In this document: positions 24,671 through 32,595 of the stretch, one piece after another | How the letters are laid out: each line of letters starts with the position of its first letter | How positions within the stretch are numbered: the first letter of the stretch is position 1 | Assembly: GCA_028874985.1 (NCBI GenBank) | Contig: JAPPGI010000214.1 | Span: forward strand, 1-33,718 | DNA: 33,718 bases | From: Gemmatimonadota bacterium | Lineage (GTDB): Bacteria > Gemmatimonadota > Gemmatimonadetes > Longimicrobiales > Gaopeijiaceae | Direction: 5' to 3' | Program-made: the position numbers and the translations under genes | Notes under the pieces: model-generated | The model's database searches: none | What the model saw: the letters and a program-made list of their open reading frames with translations, nothing else | Told to the model about the DNA's origin: nothing

Positions 24671-24908
24671 CGGCTCCGCTCGCGTTGCTCCCCGGTCGAA
24701 CAGCGCTGCTGCTTCCCGCTCGTCGCGCCTTGCCGGCCCGACAGAGCACCTGAGGTCCGAATCACGGCAGGAGATCACGTAAAGTCAACCCGGACTGCAC
24801 GATCTGCGTTTTCAACCGTTAGACTGGACCCTACTGGACCGTGCCTCGACAGCGGGAAAACGGGTTTGATTGGCGGGAACCTGCGCGAACCCCAGCACCG
24901 GGTCAAGC

Positions 24909-25592
24909 TCACGGATTCTTCCGTCCGATCCCGGCTGTCTTCAGCATGTCCGCCAGATGGCCCGATTCCACGACGACCCGCATGAGGTCCACGCGGCTCT
25001 GGACGCCCAGCTTGCTCTTCAGGGACACTCGGTAGTTCGCGACGGTTTTCGGTGCAAGATGGATCCTGCGGGCGATCTCGTCGGCGGTGTAACCGGTCGC
25101 GGTGAGGTACAGGACATCGCGTTCCCGCTCGCTCAGGGAGTCCCAGCCACCAGCGAGGCCCTGCGAGGCGTTTCGTGCCTTGGAAAGCAGACCGACGACA
25201 TGCGCGGGGAAGGTCATCCTTCCGGCGGCCACCATGTCGAGGGCTCCGACCAGATCGGAGCGAGCCCGCCGCTTGCTCAGGCACCCCATGGCGCCCGCCT
25301 CGATCGCGGCCTCGACATACTCCGGCTCATCGTAGGCGGTCAACACCAGCACGCGGACATCCGGATTCCGCGTCGTGATCCTTCGGGTTGCGGCGATGCC
25401 GTCCATGCCCGGCATGCGGATGTCCATCACGACCAACTCCGGCTTGAGCGCGTCCACCCGCTCGATGGCTGCTTCACCGGAGGAAGCCTCTCCGACCACA
25501 TCGTACCGTTCGGTGAGTTCGATGAGCAGCTTGATTCCGGCGCGGACAACGGCATGGTCGTCGACGAGCACGACGCGGCAGGAGTAGCTCAT
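24909..25592 (-). CDS. NarL/LuxR-family response regulator
   Basis: A 227-aa protein. The receiver domain has the DD pair (11-12), phospho-acceptor Asp57 (VVMDIRMPG), the conserved Thr in VLTAYDE and Lys107. The LuxR-type HTH (LSERERDVLYL through VANYRVSLKSKLG) covers about 152-195. The ATG overlaps the kinase stop by 4 bp (ATGA), so the two are a cognate pair. It is the best candidate to bind the TTCCCG repeat region upstream of the operon. Confidence 0.93.
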   Translation of the reverse strand: MSYSCRVVLVDDHAVVRAGIKLLIELTERYDVVGEASSGEAAIERVDALKPELVVMDIRMPGMDGIAATRRITTRNPDVRVLVLTAYDEPEYVEAAIEAGAMGCLSKRRARSDLVGALDMVAAGRMTFPAHVVGLLSKARNASQGLAGGWDSLSERERDVLYLTATGYTADEIARRIHLAPKTVANYRVSLKSKLGVQSRVDLMRVVVESGHLADMLKTAGIGRKNP

Positions 25593-26671
25593 TCCGAGTC
25601 GTCCTCCTCGCGCCCAGGCATCGCAATGGGCACTTCGAGTCTGACCGACGTGCCGTCCCCGGGCGCGCTCGCGATGGTGAGCCGCCCTCCGGCGATCCGG
25701 CTCCGCTCCCGCATGCTCCCGACGCCGACCGACAGATGCGGCTCAAGTTCGTCGGGCGAGAAGCCCGCCCCGGAATCGCTGACTTCGGCGTACAGCGTCC
25801 TGCCCTCCCTCCAGTACCTCACCTTGGCGCTTCCGGCACCGCTGTGCCGCTTGGCGTTGTTGAGCGCTTCCTGCACGACCCGGAACACGGCCAGACTGGT
25901 CTCGGCCCTCAGCGCCCTGCCCGCCCAGCGGATGTCCCGCTCGATGACGAAGCCCTGCGTCGCCGTGCGCCGACAAAGGACGCTGAGCGCGAATTCGAGC
26001 CCATGCCCCTCCAACTCGACAGGCATCAGATCTCGTATGGCGCGATCCAGCGAGTCATGACACCGGTCCAGATCGCCTTGGACGCCCGAGATCATCTTGG
26101 GCGCGTCCTCCCCCGCCATTCCCCGTTCAACCAGGGCGGCGAGATGAAGCTGGACGGCCGTGAGGCTTTGCTTCACTTCGTCGTGCAGGTCCCGGGCGAT
26201 CCGCGACCGCTCCGCCTCGGCCGCCAGGACCCTCGCCGCTGCCACCCTGCGAAGCATCTGGCTTTGAGCCAGGCTGCGCACGGCGCAGACCACCAGCACC
26301 TCTCCCGCCTCGTCGGTCATCGGACCGAGACTGATCTCGACGGGGAACCCGCCGCCGTCCTTGTGCACCGCTTCAAGTTCCATGCCGACGCCCATCGGGC
26401 GCGATGTGGGTTTGCGGTGGTACACTTCCCGGTGGCGGCGGTGGCGGTCCCGAAGCTCAGCGGGAACCAGGATTTCGACCGACTCGCCGACCAACTCTTC
26501 GCGCGACCACCCGAACATCGTCTCGGCCTCGGGGTTCGCGTCCCTCAACAGGCCGTCGGCCCCGACCAGGAGCATCGCGTCCGGCGATGCGCGGAACACC
26601 GCCCGGAAGTCGCTTGGGCGGGCAAGCAGCTTGTGGATGAGAATCTCCTCGAAGTACAGGCCGGGGATCAT
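25589..26671 (-). CDS. PAS-domain sensor histidine kinase (HisKA_3 type)
   Basis: A 360-aa protein without membrane segments. The PAS domain (about 20-135) is followed by a HisKA_3 dimerisation domain with His163 in RIARDLHDEVKQSLT and an HATPase domain (VVQEALNNAKRHS, DSGAGFSPDEL, GVGSMRERS). The ATG at 26671 overlaps the sigma-factor stop by 4 bp; the frame is open further upstream, but only as a shadow of the sigma gene. It is the expected partner of the adjacent NarL-type regulator; the input is probably cytosolic. Confidence 0.92.
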   Translation of the reverse strand: MIPGLYFEEILIHKLLARPSDFRAVFRASPDAMLLVGADGLLRDANPEAETMFGWSREELVGESVEILVPAELRDRHRRHREVYHRKPTSRPMGVGMELEAVHKDGGGFPVEISLGPMTDEAGEVLVVCAVRSLAQSQMLRRVAAARVLAAEAERSRIARDLHDEVKQSLTAVQLHLAALVERGMAGEDAPKMISGVQGDLDRCHDSLDRAIRDLMPVELEGHGLEFALSVLCRRTATQGFVIERDIRWAGRALRAETSLAVFRVVQEALNNAKRHSGAGSAKVRYWREGRTLYAEVSDSGAGFSPDELEPHLSVGVGSMRERSRIAGGRLTIASAPGDGTSVRLEVPIAMPGREEDDSE

Positions 26672-27312
26672 GGCGCTGCCTCGCCAAGCGCGGGAGGAGC
26701 GCCAGTGTCCGATCCGTTGATCATACGGTTCCCCGGCTCTTGCGACCACAGCGACGGCCGACGTGGCGCGTAGCAGGCGAGCTCGGGCGTGCGCCGCAGC
26801 CGCAGGCAGGCGCGCCTCAGTCTGTTCCGCACTGTGGAAGCCGGGAGGCTCTCGCGGTGCGCGATGTCGTTGGCGCTCAGCCCGTGCCAGTAGCGGAGGA
26901 GCAGCAATCGCCGCTGCTCGTCCGGGAGACGGGCTAAGGCGCTTCCAATCCGAACCCGCAACTCGGCGGTCTCGGCGGCGGCCAGGGGATCCGGAGCCGT
27001 ATCCACAGCCGGAGTAACGTCGCCGTCGATCTCGACAAAGCGGTCCCCCTCGATCCGGTCCCGACCGACCGCGTCGGCGCAGACGCGCCGGCAAAGCGTC
27101 TTCGCCCATCCGAGCAACGCTTCCGGGTCGCGGCACTGCCTCCGCTTCTCATGGATTCGGATGCGGCAGGCCTGCGCCAGTTCCTCGGCGGTCGTCCGGT
27201 CCCGCGCGAATCGCATGGCGACCGACTGGACAAGCGGTTCGACCCTCGGCAGCAGGTCGTCGTCCCGGCACCGCCCGTCTCCCCGAGTACTGCGAAAGCC
27301 GTTGCGGTTCAT
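26668..27312 (-). CDS. ECF-like RNA polymerase sigma factor
   Basis: A 214-aa protein. Region 2 resembles LVQSVAMRFARDRTTAEELAQ with a WAKTLCRRVCADAVGRDR segment; region 4 has LARLPDEQRRLLLLRYWHG and the HTH SANDIAHRESLPASTVRNRL. The ATG at 27312 has AAGGAG 8 nt upstream. It is the first gene of a three-gene operon with the kinase and regulator, each joined by an ATGA overlap, an arrangement that makes phospho-signalling and sigma supply co-regulated. No anti-sigma gene is adjacent. Confidence 0.88.
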   Translation of the reverse strand: MNRNGFRSTRGDGRCRDDDLLPRVEPLVQSVAMRFARDRTTAEELAQACRIRIHEKRRQCRDPEALLGWAKTLCRRVCADAVGRDRIEGDRFVEIDGDVTPAVDTAPDPLAAAETAELRVRIGSALARLPDEQRRLLLLRYWHGLSANDIAHRESLPASTVRNRLRRACLRLRRTPELACYAPRRPSLWSQEPGNRMINGSDTGAPPALGEAAP

Positions 27313-27393
27313 CCGTCCGCTCCTTTCGGCACGAGTCCGCGCCTCGCTGGCCGAAGCGCACACTAAAGCTGCCGGTGGGACGGGCGCGCAGAC

Positions 27394-27423
27394 AGGGTAC
27401 TTTTTCCACGACTTTGGTGCCAA
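27394..27423 (-). promoter_or_regulatory. Candidate promoter of the sigma-kinase-regulator operon
   Basis: On the minus strand TTGGCA (plus 27418-27423) and TACCCT (plus 27394-27399), 18-bp spacer, about 80 nt upstream of the sigma ATG. The TTCCCG repeat cluster begins 5 bp upstream of the -35, the usual place for an activator. Confidence 0.45.
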
Positions 27424-27427
27424 AAGG

Positions 27428-27533
27428 TTCCCGAGTCGTCCGGGAAGAAGTTCCCGTGCCAGGGCAGCAACTTCCCGTCGGGTCGGGAAGAAAGTTCCCG
27501 AAATCCGCCCCGAAACGTGCCAAGAACTTCCCG
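27428..27533. promoter_or_regulatory. Cluster of seven TTCCCG motifs (putative operator array)
   Basis: TTCCCG on the plus strand starts at 27428, 27451, 27472, 27495 and 27528; the inverted form CGGGAA starts at 27441 and 27484. They form two copies of a three-part unit (TTCCCG, CGGGAA, TTCCCG) offset by 44 bp, plus a single extra site. CGGGAA-4-TTCCCG and CGGGAA-5-TTCCCG are perfect inverted repeats. The array lies in the divergent region between the sigma operon and the peptide gene. Confidence 0.65.
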
Positions 27534-27689
27534 TCCGGCGCGATTTGCCGAAAACATGCCGAACAAACCGCCGAATCCGAGCTTCTGGGCCGGTGAGACG
27601 TTTTTCTCGCTCGCACTGTCTAATGGGGCGAGGGCAACGATCTCACACGGGGATCGCCCGAAACCCAATTCGTCACAAGGAGGCATACC

Positions 27690-27941
27690 ATGACGAACCC
27701 CATCAAGCTCGTCCGTGCTGTAGCGCTGGCGGGCGTCCTCTCCGTTGTCCCCCTCGCGGTGGACAAGACCTCCGAGAATCCCGGATTCGCCGGATTTTCG
27801 GTGACCCCCTCCGTGGCCTGCGCCCAGGCCGATGAGTGCTCCTTTTCTCTCTTCAAGATCTGCAGCAGCCACCACGGTGACCGCAGGTTCTACCGGTGCT
27901 CGAAGGGCTGCAAGGAGCCGGCAGAGGAAGAGAAGAAGTAG
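27690..27941 (+). CDS. Small secreted Cys-rich peptide
   Basis: An 83-aa protein with a strong ribosome binding site (AAGGAGG, 7 nt before ATG). The N-terminus (KLVRAVALAGVLSVVPLAV) is a hydrophobic export signal, followed by a spacer rich in Pro/Phe/Gly and then SVACAQADEC. The C-terminal part has four cysteines, C-x7-C-x11-C-x3-C, with basic and His residues and a charged tail (EPAEEEKK). The layout (hydrophobic start, 20-25-residue spacer, short motif, Cys-rich mature peptide, propeller genes next door) resembles Bacteroidota NVEALA-type peptides, but the motif itself is different, so this is an analogy. A -10-like TCTAAT at 27619-27624 is the likely promoter; its -35 is weak, as expected if an activator is needed. 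Confidence 0.75.
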   Translation: MTNPIKLVRAVALAGVLSVVPLAVDKTSENPGFAGFSVTPSVACAQADECSFSLFKICSSHHGDRRFYRCSKGCKEPAEEEKK

Positions 27942-27963
27942 CAACACCCACCACGAGTCCCAG

Positions 27964-28000
27964 CCCGCCGACTGCAGCCAACGGGCTCGCGGTCGGCGGG
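27964..28000 (+). other. Intercistronic stem-loop between peptide and propeller genes
   Basis: CCCGCCGAC (27964-27972) and GTCGGCGGG (27992-28000) form a perfect 9-bp stem with a 19-nt loop, 23 nt after the peptide stop. No T-run follows. It could protect the peptide mRNA or limit read-through into the propeller genes. Confidence 0.5.
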
Positions 28001-28022
28001 ACGGGACGGGAGAACAAGAGAC

Positions 28023-29096
28023 ATGGAATCGTTTATTACGAAAGTCGCGCGCACCGGGCTCGCACTGGTCGCAGCCGGTTGCGCCGAAGCGAACGTACCC
28101 ACTGAGGAAAGCGTCCGAACCGAGATGTTCCCCACCCTGGCCGATCCGGTAGAGGTGGTTCTGAAGGAGAGCCGGACGCTGGGCAAGCCCGACGACTTTG
28201 GCCTTCTCTTCGCGGTCGCAGCGCTCAACGACGAGTACCTGCTCGTCGGCGATGCGGCTGCGGATCGCCACCTGCTCGTCGTGGATATTGGGAGCGGGCA
28301 GGTGGTGACGCGGATGGGACCCCACGGTGAGGGACCACAGGAGTTCATGGGTCCGCATCGCATCGTCGCCGACCCCAACCGCACCGATACCTGGTGGGTG
28401 TACGATTTTCCCTCATGGACTTGGACTCCGGTGACGATGCTCGGAGATCCCGGCATCTGGGAGATTGGCGAGCGTTATTCGGTGCAAGGGCTACCGCCCA
28501 CACCGGAGACGCCGATATGGGTCGGCGAGAACGAAGCTGTGGTTCACGGAATGTTCCCCGGATTCGCCGTTGCCCGGGTCTCGTTTGATGAGGACAGCCG
28601 CCGCTTGGAGGAGTGGACTCTGATTGAGGCGGAGCAACCGTTCTCCCCAGAAGAGATTCCAGAACCTGGGTTGTCCCTGCTGAACAGAAGCTTCGTGGCC
28701 GTCCGGCCGAGCGGCGGATTCGCAGTCGCCTACCAGTTCGACAATTGGATCGAGGTACGCGACAGGAACGGCCAGTTCGTTCGCAGGGTTGACGGCCCCC
28801 GCGAAGTGACGCCCGATTACAGGATCGACGACACCAACACTTTCCATTGGGGTGAGGATGACCAGAACGGCTATGTCGGCGGCTACGGTACGGAAACGGC
28901 CTTCTACCTGTTGTGGTGCGGCGCTGCCGAGTGCCCGACCATGGCGATCCACCAGTTCGATTGGGAAGGGAACTTCATCCGCGAACTCGGGATCCCGGCA
29001 GTGACCGATTTCGCCGTCTCCTCGACTGGAGATCGCATGTGGGGGTTCATGCACGAGCGCATCCCACCGCTCATTGGCGAGTGGATCCTGCCGTAG
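28023..29096 (+). CDS. 6-bladed beta-propeller lipoprotein
   Basis: A 357-aa protein. MESFITKVARTG followed by LALVAAGC is a lipoprotein-type signal. The body shows propeller-like strands, including GPHGEGPQEFMGPHRIVADP, a form of the G.GEGPGEF motif common in 6-bladed propeller proteins, and a WEGNFIRELG strand near the end. It follows the small peptide gene in the same direction and precedes a second propeller, so the three are likely one transcript. Binding or display of the peptide is a guess. Six-blade folds were judged from motifs only. Confidence 0.7.
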   Translation: MESFITKVARTGLALVAAGCAEANVPTEESVRTEMFPTLADPVEVVLKESRTLGKPDDFGLLFAVAALNDEYLLVGDAAADRHLLVVDIGSGQVVTRMGPHGEGPQEFMGPHRIVADPNRTDTWWVYDFPSWTWTPVTMLGDPGIWEIGERYSVQGLPPTPETPIWVGENEAVVHGMFPGFAVARVSFDEDSRRLEEWTLIEAEQPFSPEEIPEPGLSLLNRSFVAVRPSGGFAVAYQFDNWIEVRDRNGQFVRRVDGPREVTPDYRIDDTNTFHWGEDDQNGYVGGYGTETAFYLLWCGAAECPTMAIHQFDWEGNFIRELGIPAVTDFAVSSTGDRMWGFMHERIPPLIGEWILP

Positions 29097-29152
29097 AGCA
29101 AATCGGACCGATCAGATCAGTTTCCCGCTTGTTGACAAGGAGCACGACAACC

Positions 29153-30355
29153 ATGCACCGCATCACCCACCTGGCCCTAGCGGCCCTGTCGCTCACAGCC
29201 GTTCTCACCGTCGCCTGCGTTCAGAACGATGCGCCCGCAGCAGACTTCATGATCGGCTACGATGGCGTCACCCCCGTCACCAACCCCGGCCCGCCACCAG
29301 CGGCGCGCCTCGACTTGGTCGTCTCGATCGGTCCAAAGAGCCTGACCGACATGGGGTCTCCCGACGAGTTCGGACGCGTGTCTAGCGTGGCGCTTGGGCC
29401 GAACAAGGAGGTTTTCGTCGCCGACCGCCTCAACAGCGAGGTAAGGGTCTTCGGGCTGGACGGTGTCCACCACCGCACCTTCGGGCGGAGGGGCGAGGGA
29501 CCGGGCGAGTTCCGATCTCTTAATTCGCTGGCTTGGTCGGGTGACCGCCTGCTTACCTTCGATCCCGACCAAGGCCGCATCGGTCAATGGTCGGCGGCGG
29601 GCGAGTATCTCGGGCAGCGGAGGACGCAGACTGGTGTCACGGGTCAGTCCGACTTGGTCCGGTTTTACCCTGTCGGACCGGACGAAGTGTTCGTGTATGC
29701 CTTGCTGAGCGATCAGCGCTATCAGCGATACTTCGTCGGCCTGAACAGCCGCGGCGAGACGGGCGACACGATAGCATGGTTGCGCGGGCCATCGAGCGGG
29801 CCTCCGGCGTACATCGAGTGCCAATACGAGCGGAGCCTCGCCTTCTTCGAGGTTCCCTTCGCCCCGAGGTTTCTCCAACACCCGGGCCCGGGAGGCGTCC
29901 TTTACTCGGCGCTCACCAGCGACTACCGCATCTTCGTCACACGAAGCGACGGCACCGAGGTGCTCAGGCTGATCGAGCGGCCGATGACGGGCGAGTCATT
30001 CAGCACCGCCGAATGGAGATCGGCAAACGCCGAGTACCGCGAGTGGAGGGAGGCCCGCAAGGGCGCGTCCTGCGACCCGCGCGAACCGACCCGTCCAGAC
30101 GCGAAACCGTTCATAGAGGATCTCTTCGTTGCTCCAGACGGCAAGCTGTGGGTCGAAGTCGTGCGCACGGCTGGCAACCGCTGGGAGGTGTTCGGTACCC
30201 AGGGCAGGCTCCTTGGCAGCATACCCGCTCCGCCACGGAAGGAGGGCGTCGCTCCGGCTTTCGGCCCTGACTACCTGCTCACGATCCGCCAAGACAGCCT
30301 CGACCTCGACCACATTGATGTCTGGCGCCTCGAGATTGGCGGCGGGACACACTGA
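29153..30355 (+). CDS. 6-bladed beta-propeller lipoprotein (second)
   Basis: A 400-aa protein. The ATG at 29153 follows AAGGAG and starts a signal peptide ending VLTVAC, a lipobox. NHL/propeller motifs are clear: VFVADRLNSEVRVFGLDG, RTFGRRGEGPGEFRSLNSLA and LWVEVVRTAGNRWEVFG. Another TTCCCG occurs just upstream at 29122. It is the third member of the peptide-propeller unit; the two propellers are related in design but not close paralogues. Confidence 0.8.
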   Translation: MHRITHLALAALSLTAVLTVACVQNDAPAADFMIGYDGVTPVTNPGPPPAARLDLVVSIGPKSLTDMGSPDEFGRVSSVALGPNKEVFVADRLNSEVRVFGLDGVHHRTFGRRGEGPGEFRSLNSLAWSGDRLLTFDPDQGRIGQWSAAGEYLGQRRTQTGVTGQSDLVRFYPVGPDEVFVYALLSDQRYQRYFVGLNSRGETGDTIAWLRGPSSGPPAYIECQYERSLAFFEVPFAPRFLQHPGPGGVLYSALTSDYRIFVTRSDGTEVLRLIERPMTGESFSTAEWRSANAEYREWREARKGASCDPREPTRPDAKPFIEDLFVAPDGKLWVEVVRTAGNRWEVFGTQGRLLGSIPAPPRKEGVAPAFGPDYLLTIRQDSLDLDHIDVWRLEIGGGTH

Positions 30356-30460: not shown

Positions 30461-30802
30461 GGCGGTCAGAGAACAGGCGATCTGCCATCGCGGCGAACCC
30501 GTCGTCCGCAAGGCGTGGTCCGGCTACACCGAAGCTGGTCATATCGGTGGCGTGGAGACCCTGCGTCCCCCGAAACCCGGTTGGAACGGACGGCGCATAG
30601 GTCGAAGGCGGCCTCGTCTGAGGGCGGCTCCTCCGGTCGGCTGCCGTGGATCCTAGGATTGTGCGGCTAAGGCCCTCGCTGCCACTTACGACCGCACCGT
30701 TAGTGTGAAGAAGACATCAGGGGTCGATTCACGTTTCGGCCCTTCGGCGATTCACACCGGACCTTCCGTCCATCCGCTGGCGGGGTGGCGTCTTGCGGCC
30801 TC

Positions 30803-30935
30803 GCGACCGGTCCGCCGGTTGCCGACGGGCCGCTACGGCCGTGGCGGGAGCGACCCCCCAGTCCGAGGGCCTGGTACGGGTTCGGACGCAGGTGTGTTTT
30901 CACACCCGTGCCCCCGCCCCCTGGGTCGCTCCCGC
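30803..30935. ncRNA. Candidate structured RNA (nested hairpins, three-way junction)
   Basis: An outer 13-bp perfect stem (GCGGGAGCGACCC 30844-30856 with GGGTCGCTCCCGC 30923-30935) encloses two hairpins: GTCCGA/TCGGAC (30861-30866/30882-30887) and GGTGTG-TTTT-CACACC (30891-30906). Just upstream are an 8-bp hairpin at 30803-30822 (one G-U, 4-nt loop) and a 5-bp hairpin at 30828-30840. The strand is undetermined. It matches no RNA family I know; tmRNA, RNase P RNA and SRP RNA signatures were looked for and not seen. Confidence 0.4.
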
Positions 30936-31128
30936 TTCATCAATCCCTGGCGGGAAGGCCTATCCGCACGCCTCTGTGCAACGCGGCGGATCAACCGATC
31001 CCTCCTCCGGCCACCGACTCCCCGCGTCCGCCACTACGGAACGCACGTCGTCTGGGTTTCGTCGCCGGTCCATGGAAGACCTCCGCGGCTTCGATGCGCC
31101 GCCGCGGTGAAGAGCGCCTCGCAACGAA

Positions 31129-32595
31129 TCACCTGACGGATCCCATGGTTCGCCGAAGTCTGGTTCGCCGAAATCGGACTTGGGAGAGCTGCTGTCTGAG
31201 TCGGTGGAGCACTTGGACACTGGTCTCTCCGGTCTGCGCCGCGCTCCAGAGGTCCTGAAGGTCCTCTTGAGCGAGAAGGACAACATCGTCACGCTCCGCC
31301 TTCTCCACCTCGGCCTTTGATAGCGCCTCACGCGGTCTGGCCGTCGAGAGAACCGCCATCACTTCGGTGTCGGGAAGTCGGCTGCGCAGGTCCTCCGACC
31401 GAGCGATGAGCTTGCCCACCTTGCCGCCTGCGTCGAGCGACCCGACCGTACACTCGATCACGAGTAGAACCGAAGACCCGGGGGCGTGAGCAAGGTGATC
31501 GACCGTCTCTCCGCGTCTCGTGTGACCCGAAAGGGGGTGCACGTGGAAGCCGAGGAAGAAGAACAGCAGCCCCACGGCGGCCTCGAACTGCTGCGACTTG
31601 TCCTCCCCACTCGGCCGAAGCCACTTGAGGAAGCGTTCAAGGCCGGGATCGAGAGCGTCTTGAGCCTTGATCCGGATACTGGAGGCGGTAGACGCCATCG
31701 GCACGGTCGTGCGGTCTGCGCACCGGTCCCCGACGACGATGAATGCGGTGACGGTGGAATCACCGTTCTGAACCGGGATGTCCACTTCCGAGCGGCGAGC
31801 ACCCCCCGCGTGCGCCCATTCGCGCTCGGCGAGCTTGGCCGATCCATGACGGACCGGCTCTCCGGTGGTTCCGCCTACCGTCCAGTTGAGGTCCGCATTC
31901 GCTACAAAGACATCCGCGGCAGCCCGCACGGCGACGGTCACCCGATCCGCCGAGGAGGATACCCTCTCGGGATCGAAGCGCACGGCAAGGGGGGCGATCA
32001 GTTCGACGACGGACATCGTGCTATGGATCTTCAGGCCTTCCGACCGTGTGCAGAATCTGCGCACGAGATCCGGCAGGCCGTCGTAGGCGTTCGGTCCGCC
32101 ACGAATCATGCCGTCCAACTCGAACGGATCGTGACCGGCCTGTTTCACGAGCTCGAAGACTGTGGCACCATAGCCCACGAGCGAGTGGCGGCTCCACAGG
32201 CCATAAGCAGCAGACCGGTACGAGCCGGCCAACTCATTGAAGCTGTAACTGAGGTCGATCGCAGGCTGGCCCGACTGGCCTACGTATCTGACGTACCTGG
32301 GTCGCAGCCTCATCGTTCCATTGGCGATGCCGCGGACGACGGCGGGGACGTCCGCAACCGGACGAACCACCTGCCAGGCACGGAATTGGCGCCGCTCGAC
32401 TGGTGAACGGCGTGGGACCGATCGAGGGGGACGATGGTCCAGAAAACCACGCGTAATGAGGTTCATCCACCGGCGACCGTTGCGGATCGCACAGACGCGC
32501 AGATCGACGGACCGCCAGAACCCTCCGCCATTCACCAGCTCGATAAACCGATTTGCGTCCTCCTCTGGAGAGCGCTCGCGTCTCTTCTGTGACAT
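31129..32595 (-). CDS. Putative PD-(D/E)xK-like nuclease, orphan
   Basis: A 488-aa protein of no recognised family. The first about 320 residues carry no motif I know. From about 335 a restriction-endonuclease-like core appears: Glu338 in QQFEAAVGLLFFFLGF, Asp366 in TVDHLAH, Glu381 in LLVIECTVG, then Lys392 and Lys395 in GGKVGKLIAR. The usual E-x-K is E-x-T, with a Lys moved to the following helix, a variation known in this superfamily. Target and role are unknown; a defence or repair function is inferred. It is isolated between two gene-free stretches. Confidence 0.6.
   Translation of the reverse strand: MSQKRRERSPEEDANRFIELVNGGGFWRSVDLRVCAIRNGRRWMNLITRGFLDHRPPRSVPRRSPVERRQFRAWQVVRPVADVPAVVRGIANGTMRLRPRYVRYVGQSGQPAIDLSYSFNELAGSYRSAAYGLWSRHSLVGYGATVFELVKQAGHDPFELDGMIRGGPNAYDGLPDLVRRFCTRSEGLKIHSTMSVVELIAPLAVRFDPERVSSSADRVTVAVRAAADVFVANADLNWTVGGTTGEPVRHGSAKLAEREWAHAGGARRSEVDIPVQNGDSTVTAFIVVGDRCADRTTVPMASTASSIRIKAQDALDPGLERFLKWLRPSGEDKSQQFEAAVGLLFFFLGFHVHPLSGHTRRGETVDHLAHAPGSSVLLVIECTVGSLDAGGKVGKLIARSEDLRSRLPDTEVMAVLSTARPREALSKAEVEKAERDDVVLLAQEDLQDLWSAAQTGETSVQVLHRLRQQLSQVRFRRTRLRRTMGSVR

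Follow-up and report, generated by a model that had tools for sequence, protein, structure and literature searches.

In the Bacteroidota, NVEALA peptides (PF14055) have 6-bladed propellers as neighbours. Methylamine dehydrogenase combines a large subunit that is a seven-bladed propeller with a cysteine-rich small subunit packed on it, and a thioredoxin-like protein, MauD, belongs to the system. Integrons exchange gene cassettes, with interchangeable cargo next to a fixed promoter side. Extracytoplasmic function (ECF) sigma factors under two-component control and without an anti-sigma factor are also known (SigE with CseA/B/C, ECF39; ECF234; PMC8999054). Here we report on a locus that recalls each of these, found in a stretch of 33,718 nucleotides from a Gemmatimonadota bacterium (assembly GCA_028874985.1, contig JAPPGI010000214.1), hereafter called the window, which is contig C84 of host genome G000 (4.25 Mb, 230 contigs; counts across the whole host genome are based on searches). 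A trio of genes for an ECF sigma factor, a histidine kinase and a response regulator diverges from genes for a small exported peptide and two propeller lipoproteins, the cargo, with an operator in between; trio and operator are referred to as the cassette. On this phylum, our literature search returned no paper uniting a propeller, an ECF sigma factor and a secreted peptide; no paper was found for NVEALA, and nothing relevant on methylamine dehydrogenase. The features of the locus are as follows:

24909..25592, minus strand: NarL/FixJ-type response regulator (PF00072 4e-31, GerE 2.5e-16)
25589..26671, minus strand: cytosolic PAS histidine kinase (PF00989 4e-17, HisKA_3 2.5e-10, HATPase_c 1e-11)
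26668..27312, minus strand: ECF sigma factor (Sigma70_r4_2 5e-13, Sigma70_r2 2e-8)
27428..27533, no strand: operator array of two GGGAA-N4/5-TTCCCG inverted repeats and single TTCCCG sites (repeat detection, conserved in other copies)
27593..27623, plus strand: putative ECF-type promoter of the peptide operon, -35 GTGAGACG, 17-bp spacer, -10 GTCTAA (GTGAnnCG and GTC columns conserved)
27690..27941, plus strand: exported Cys-rich peptide, 83 aa (homologues in six families; ratio of nonsynonymous to synonymous polymorphism, pN/pS, <1)
28023..29096, plus strand: propeller 1, TolB_like 6-bladed lipoprotein, the peptide's conserved partner (PF15869 1.6e-7, lipobox LVAAGC, ortholog search)
29153..30355, plus strand: propeller 2, DUF5128/NHL lipoprotein (PF17170 3e-7, lipobox LTVAC)
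24677..27665, no strand: block common to paralogous cassettes (blastn 93% over 2994 bp to G000:C184, 92% over 3006 bp to G013:C2)

Gene calls, Pfam matches and repeat detection recovered everything that a first-pass annotation of this DNA had claimed to be present, namely the trio, the peptide, two lipoprotein propellers, the ATGA overlaps and a repeat operator. The cysteine pattern that it gave for the peptide, C-x7-C-x11-C-x3-C, is present and is preceded by one further cysteine, making five in all (44-x5-50-x7-58-x11-70-x3-74).

As in SigE/Cse-type systems, the sigma factor is co-encoded with a kinase and a response regulator and has no anti-sigma gene beside it; here, however, the kinase is of the cytosolic PAS/HisKA_3 type, the regulator is of the NarL type, the operator is found only with the cassette, and the cargo is divergent and exchangeable. 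With integrons the locus shares a fixed promoter side and swappable cargo, as well as tyrosine integrase genes and repeats (R1 and R2, see below) in the vicinity, whereas neither an attC-like site nor any other recombination site was demonstrated here and the cargo is always a peptide–propeller operon. The likeness to NVEALA lies in the layout, a small exported Cys-containing peptide by a TolB_like/6-bladed propeller with a motif between leader and Cys-rich tail, but the literal NVEALA motif after the leader is absent, RPxxACAQ or N-x-A-C-[AG] standing in its place, and the locus is set apart by its dedicated ECF regulators, by the thioredoxin-fold proteins that recur as partners and by the unmatched PF14055 model. 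By analogy, it may work like an NVEALA/propeller arrangement; by the PF14055 test it is not a member.

The regulator trio and its exchanged cargo

The genes of the trio are joined by ATGA overlaps of 4 bp each (26668-26671 and 25589-25592). The sigma factor consists of sigma-70 regions 2 and 4 only (TIGR02937 3.7e-21). No transmembrane segment was seen in the kinase, a heme-binding role like that of FixL was considered for its PAS domain but the match to the NCBIfam FixL model fell far below the cut-off, and no anti-sigma gene adjoining the sigma gene was found among the gene calls and Pfam matches. The sigma subfamily is tight (53-90% identity) and, in a search with a class-wide profile (E<=1e-30), occupies 12 places in 8 genomes: two more relatives are encoded in the host, three in G019 and others in G013, G020, G025 and G005, to which the profile added G121 and G214. 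In complete copies, the kinase and the regulator are kept with the sigma factor, the amino acid identity among copies being 73-96% for the regulator and 59-98% for the kinase, while G025:C79 is a remnant consisting of operator and regulator only. Window included, the tally of the trio is thus 13 places in 8 genomes (G000:C84, C184 and C16; G013; G019, three times; G020; G025:C20 and C79; G005; G121; G214), 12 of them with a readable divergent side; contig ends cut inside the trio at G000:C16, G214 and G019:C22.

In all 12 readable copies, a small exported peptide and a propeller are encoded divergently from the trio; the peptide frame of G214 looks broken. The neighbourhood is therefore not unique to the host genome, and the two halves do occur together elsewhere. 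The first-pass annotation had regarded them as one regulated system, and indeed they form one unit across the conserved operator in 12 of 12 copies, but the trio is not bound to the peptide of the window. Cargo peptides of 184 aa (C184), 89 aa (C16, G013, G019:C74), 99 aa (G019:C22), 73 aa (G019:C49), 77 aa (G025:C20) and 72 aa (G005) were found, that of G214 being separate and the window having its own type. Two of them, from G019:C49 and G025:C20 (L209, L210), are related to the class-wide peptide profile described below, with scores of 19 and 22 bits against shuffled controls of at most 15.

The DNA of trio and promoter is up to 93-95% identical between copies with unrelated cargo. Between the window and C184, similarity starts 7 bp past the stop codon of a truB-type gene and ends 24 bp before the ATG of the peptide, and there is none through the cargo. 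Fast divergence instead of replacement was considered and is ruled out by the absence of DNA similarity between the cargoes together with a synonymous distance (dS) of only 0.07 for the histidine kinase (window vs C184, L203). The same picture emerges at an orthologous site in two genomes (G019:C49 and G005:C213), where the flanking efflux genes share 84% and the trios 86% DNA identity and the kinases are 89% identical, and where the 2.5 kb between the conserved flanks hold propellers that are 24% identical and peptides that differ. Furthermore, G025:C20 also carries the C184 cargo, 90% identical in DNA, but there it lies on the opposite side of the trio. Comparison of the copies shows, at the level of sequence, a conserved trio and operator whose cargo has been exchanged wholesale. 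The trio of G121 is 94% identical in DNA to that of C184, though G121 and G214 (L305, L306) belong to another family; these copies may reflect horizontal transfer or a binning error, which are indistinguishable here.

The exchange leaves the regulatory DNA in place. Ten intergenic regions could be aligned; near their middle they have inverted repeats of the form GGGAA-N4/5-TTCCC as well as single TTCCCG sites, and the cargo is preceded by GTGAnnCG-17-GTCTA, which resembles an ECF promoter. In several copies with differing cargo, DNA similarity extends up to the ribosome-binding site. In the window, the inverted repeats start at 27442 and 27485. The pattern GGGAARAAN{0,1}STTCCCG has six matches in the host genome, all at its three trio copies, compared with one match for a reversed control pattern. 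A regulon in trans was not seen, the inverted-repeat operator being confined in the host to the trio copies; operator matches in G025:C40 and G032:C1 fall within unrelated genes, and no known RNA element scored above threshold in the region. We infer that the response regulator binds the array and that the sigma factor reads the promoter.

The exported peptide and its propeller partner

The peptide family is class-wide and is unknown to Pfam and NCBIfam, in which none of 14 peptides had a convincing family match. The window peptide has a hydrophobic leader, and AGGAGG lies 6 bp upstream of its ATG. Values of pN/pS were below 1 in all peptide pairs tested (0.26-0.88), only weakly so for two pairs involving the window peptide (0.82-0.88). 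A spurious open reading frame is ruled out by the homologues in six families, by these pN/pS values, weak as they are for the two window pairs, and by the good ribosome-binding site. Clear homologues were found in G025, G014, G023 and G011 by a peptide search of the genome's family, G011 grouping with the family of the window; a protein-pattern scan of the genome contigs had found no peptide relatives, whereas the whole-genome search did. The peptides carry the motif RPxxACAQ or N-x-A-C-[AG], with class-wide forms such as VNEACG and ENTACA. In G014 (L032 8481-9271), three tandem peptide genes are followed by one propeller gene, and the first two peptides lack the last two cysteines.

The genomes G025, G014, G023 and G011 each encode an ortholog of propeller 1 (55-64% identity) after the peptide, and a separate search with the propeller led to seven genomes, in six of which the peptide adjoins (the exception is G026). 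When a profile of 14 family members was run against 395 genomes of the phylum (E<=1e-3), it returned 17 new matches, 15 of them with a propeller immediately adjacent or fused. A check proposed by the first-pass annotation was whether the peptide occurs next to propeller genes in other Gemmatimonadota, and it does; including the seeds, the pair covers six families (f1, f2, f3, f4, f6 and f7), a set in which some loci are near-identical copies and not all are independent. By contrast, a control on the host's own propellers found an exported peptide with at least three cysteines upstream in 3 of 25 evaluable cases, one of which is a trio copy. Chance adjacency is ruled out, since a propeller accompanies every one of the 12 readable trio copies and 15 of the 17 new class-wide matches. 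Compared across the class, the pair is conserved by itself, independently of the trio.

Propeller 1 scores above the gathering threshold of PF15869 (31.4 vs 29.2 bits). Propeller 2 is 43% identical to the propeller that precedes a natural fusion in G037 (L080 7717-8922), in which a degenerate peptide is joined in frame with a propeller to give a protein of 401 aa. In the structure predicted for the propeller part of this fusion, most of residues 71-390 have a predicted local distance difference test score (pLDDT) of about 90 or higher. By comparison, the fold is of the 6-bladed NHL type: the top fold matches are 6-bladed NHL domains (Z 20-23), with Brat NHL at Z 23.1 (rmsd, root-mean-square deviation, 3.2; 263 aligned residues), and the Bacteroides DUF4221 protein 3s9j follows at Z 19.3 (rmsd 3.8, 310 aligned). 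Propeller lipoproteins are very abundant in such genomes, the host holding 73 matches to PF17170.

Beyond the propeller, the pair has recurrent partners. Of 29 pair loci, 17 have an ECF sigma gene no more than 4.5 kb away; with 11-38 sigma-70-family genes per genome, about 5% would be expected by chance according to our own estimate. Throughout these loci of family f4, and also in G296 of family f2, the pair belongs to an operon with the order ECF sigma factor, a protein of about 715 aa, peptide and propeller. The large protein (L123 7487-9658 and relatives) combines an N-terminal zf-HC2 motif with TPR repeats and a weak C-terminal AhpC/TSA or redoxin domain and is a candidate anti-sigma factor with a redox domain. 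In this respect the first-pass annotation, which spoke of dedicated regulators, needs amending: class-wide, the pair is often near this other sigma arrangement. Thioredoxin-fold genes stand beside pairs (AhpC/TSA in L083 and L084, DsbA-like in L128 and L132) or inside cargo operons (DsbA-like in L306). The cargo operons of L205 and L206 also encode a protein of 199 aa, in L205 as the third cargo gene; a model of it, modest in confidence (pLDDT 59.5), has a fold match to thiol:disulfide oxidoreductases.

Further peptide–propeller operons in the host (L307 969-3998 in G000:C57 and L315 9100-11329 in G000:C176) are followed by genes for small CHTC or CFTC proteins, which look thioredoxin-like by eye and have no Pfam match. 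At L308 1268-5690 (G000:C147), the genes for a 174-aa Cys-rich exported protein and two propellers precede, on the same strand, those for a kinase and a NarL-type regulator that differ from the ones of the trio.

Possible function and alternative explanations

We consider it rather probable that we are dealing with an inducible peptide–envelope module, self-contained and able to travel and to exchange its cargo. The cytosolic PAS kinase would phosphorylate the NarL-type regulator, which would bind the GGGAA-N4/5-TTCCCG array and raise transcription of the trio; the ECF sigma factor would then read the GTGAnnCG-17-GTCTA promoter of the divergent operon. This operon would export a small, usually disulfide-rich peptide together with a lipid-anchored 6-bladed propeller that may hold or handle the peptide at the cell envelope. 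Binding between the two is suggested by the conserved pairing and the one natural fusion, and their joint exchange likewise suggests mutual recognition. Many of the other loci have a thioredoxin-fold protein in the operon or close to it, and this protein may make or test the disulfides of the peptide. That the regulatory half is kept while the peptide–propeller half is replaced is what one would expect of a surface, recognition or signalling function that varies. More tentatively, we propose a kind of locus not described before: a fixed ECF sigma/kinase/regulator cassette with a private operator and an exchangeable peptide and propeller, sometimes with a thioredoxin-fold maturase, that would spread with mobile elements, replace its cargo and possibly serve self/non-self recognition, antagonism or host interaction. 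Either way, anonymous annotations (hypothetical peptide, 6-bladed propeller) become a defined, testable system. It comprises a family of exported peptides that is class-wide, a partner propeller that is almost constant, an ECF-type switch in several lineages, and one lineage in which the regulators are retained and the pair is replaced.

Several observations weigh against the module. The same pair as in the window occurs without the trio in sister genomes (G025:C58, G014, G023 and G011; L031-L034), so the trio is not required for the pair; taken together with the unrelated pairs that the trio faces elsewhere, this makes the trio a regulatory cassette with swappable cargo. The cargo peptides are not one detectable family, those other than L209 and L210 scoring no higher than shuffled controls, and the L208-type peptide (G020, G025:C79; 116 aa) has only two cysteines. 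The peptide part of the G037 fusion is predicted to be disordered (pLDDT <50) and does not dock on the propeller, and no thioredoxin-fold gene adjoins the window's own pair.

We think it unlikely that the propeller has the peptide as its small subunit, structural or catalytic, and that the locus makes a redox enzyme or sensor whose variation reflects substrate range. The near-constant pairing, the in-frame fusion and the thioredoxin-fold neighbours in several lineages would be in line with this, as would the likeness to methylamine dehydrogenase, which also combines an exported propeller with a small Cys-rich protein and, as in many of our loci, a thioredoxin-fold helper. However, no peptide has a Pfam or NCBIfam match, that to the small subunit being absent in all 14, the propeller fold is, by its best matches, 6-bladed and NHL-type, the window peptide has no Trp for a quinone cofactor, and neither cofactor residues nor maturation genes were seen.

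We likewise give little credence to a bacteriocin-like antagonistic peptide with the lipoprotein propeller as cognate holder or self-protection and strain rivalry as the force behind the exchange of pairs. Unrelated paired cargoes swapped in place behind one conserved regulator and promoter, and integrase and relaxase genes near some copies, speak for it, but the class-wide family is constrained (pN/pS <1) and has kept a single architecture over long times, and dedicated export or processing genes were not seen. Still less probable is a trio that, as a mobile regulatory region, came to lie beside various peptide–propeller operons, co-regulation being incidental: the trio-free pairs of the sister genomes and the dispersed repeats and integrases nearby could be so explained, yet every readable trio faces a pair while no more than 3 of 25 sampled propellers are preceded by a Cys-rich exported peptide, the divergent orientation is constant, and conservation of the promoter region reaches nearly as far as the start codon. 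That the locus is a Gemmatimonadota branch of the NVEALA pairs of the Bacteroidota, to which the first-pass annotation had likened it, is hardly probable, for the shared layout (hydrophobic leader, short motif, Cys-rich tail, adjoining TolB_like propeller) and the NVEALA-like VNEACG or ENTACA motif are a resemblance only, none of 14 peptides matching PF14055 at E<=10 and PF14055 matching none of 21 relatives while a Bacteroides control was positive.

Dispersed repeats and the surroundings of the cassette

Two dispersed repeats frame the locus:

24740..24878, minus strand: R2, at the 3' end of the trio (comparison with other loci)
30671..31011, plus strand: R1, downstream of the cargo (about 16 places, 20 matches, in the host)

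Past the cargo, a 488-aa open reading frame (31129-32595, minus strand) is without a Pfam or NCBIfam match. Each of the three host cassettes has a copy of R1 downstream of its cargo; elsewhere R1 is often near a 387-aa integrase or conjugation-type genes. Integrases of the PF00589 family (386-389 aa) are common near cassette copies, and integrase and relaxase genes occur near some of them. R2 (140 bp), read in sense, also sits at the 3' ends of several peptide–propeller operons (L208 10387-10526, L306 3201-3340); a conserved ..ESRQEI-stop tail is potentially encoded on its reverse strand.

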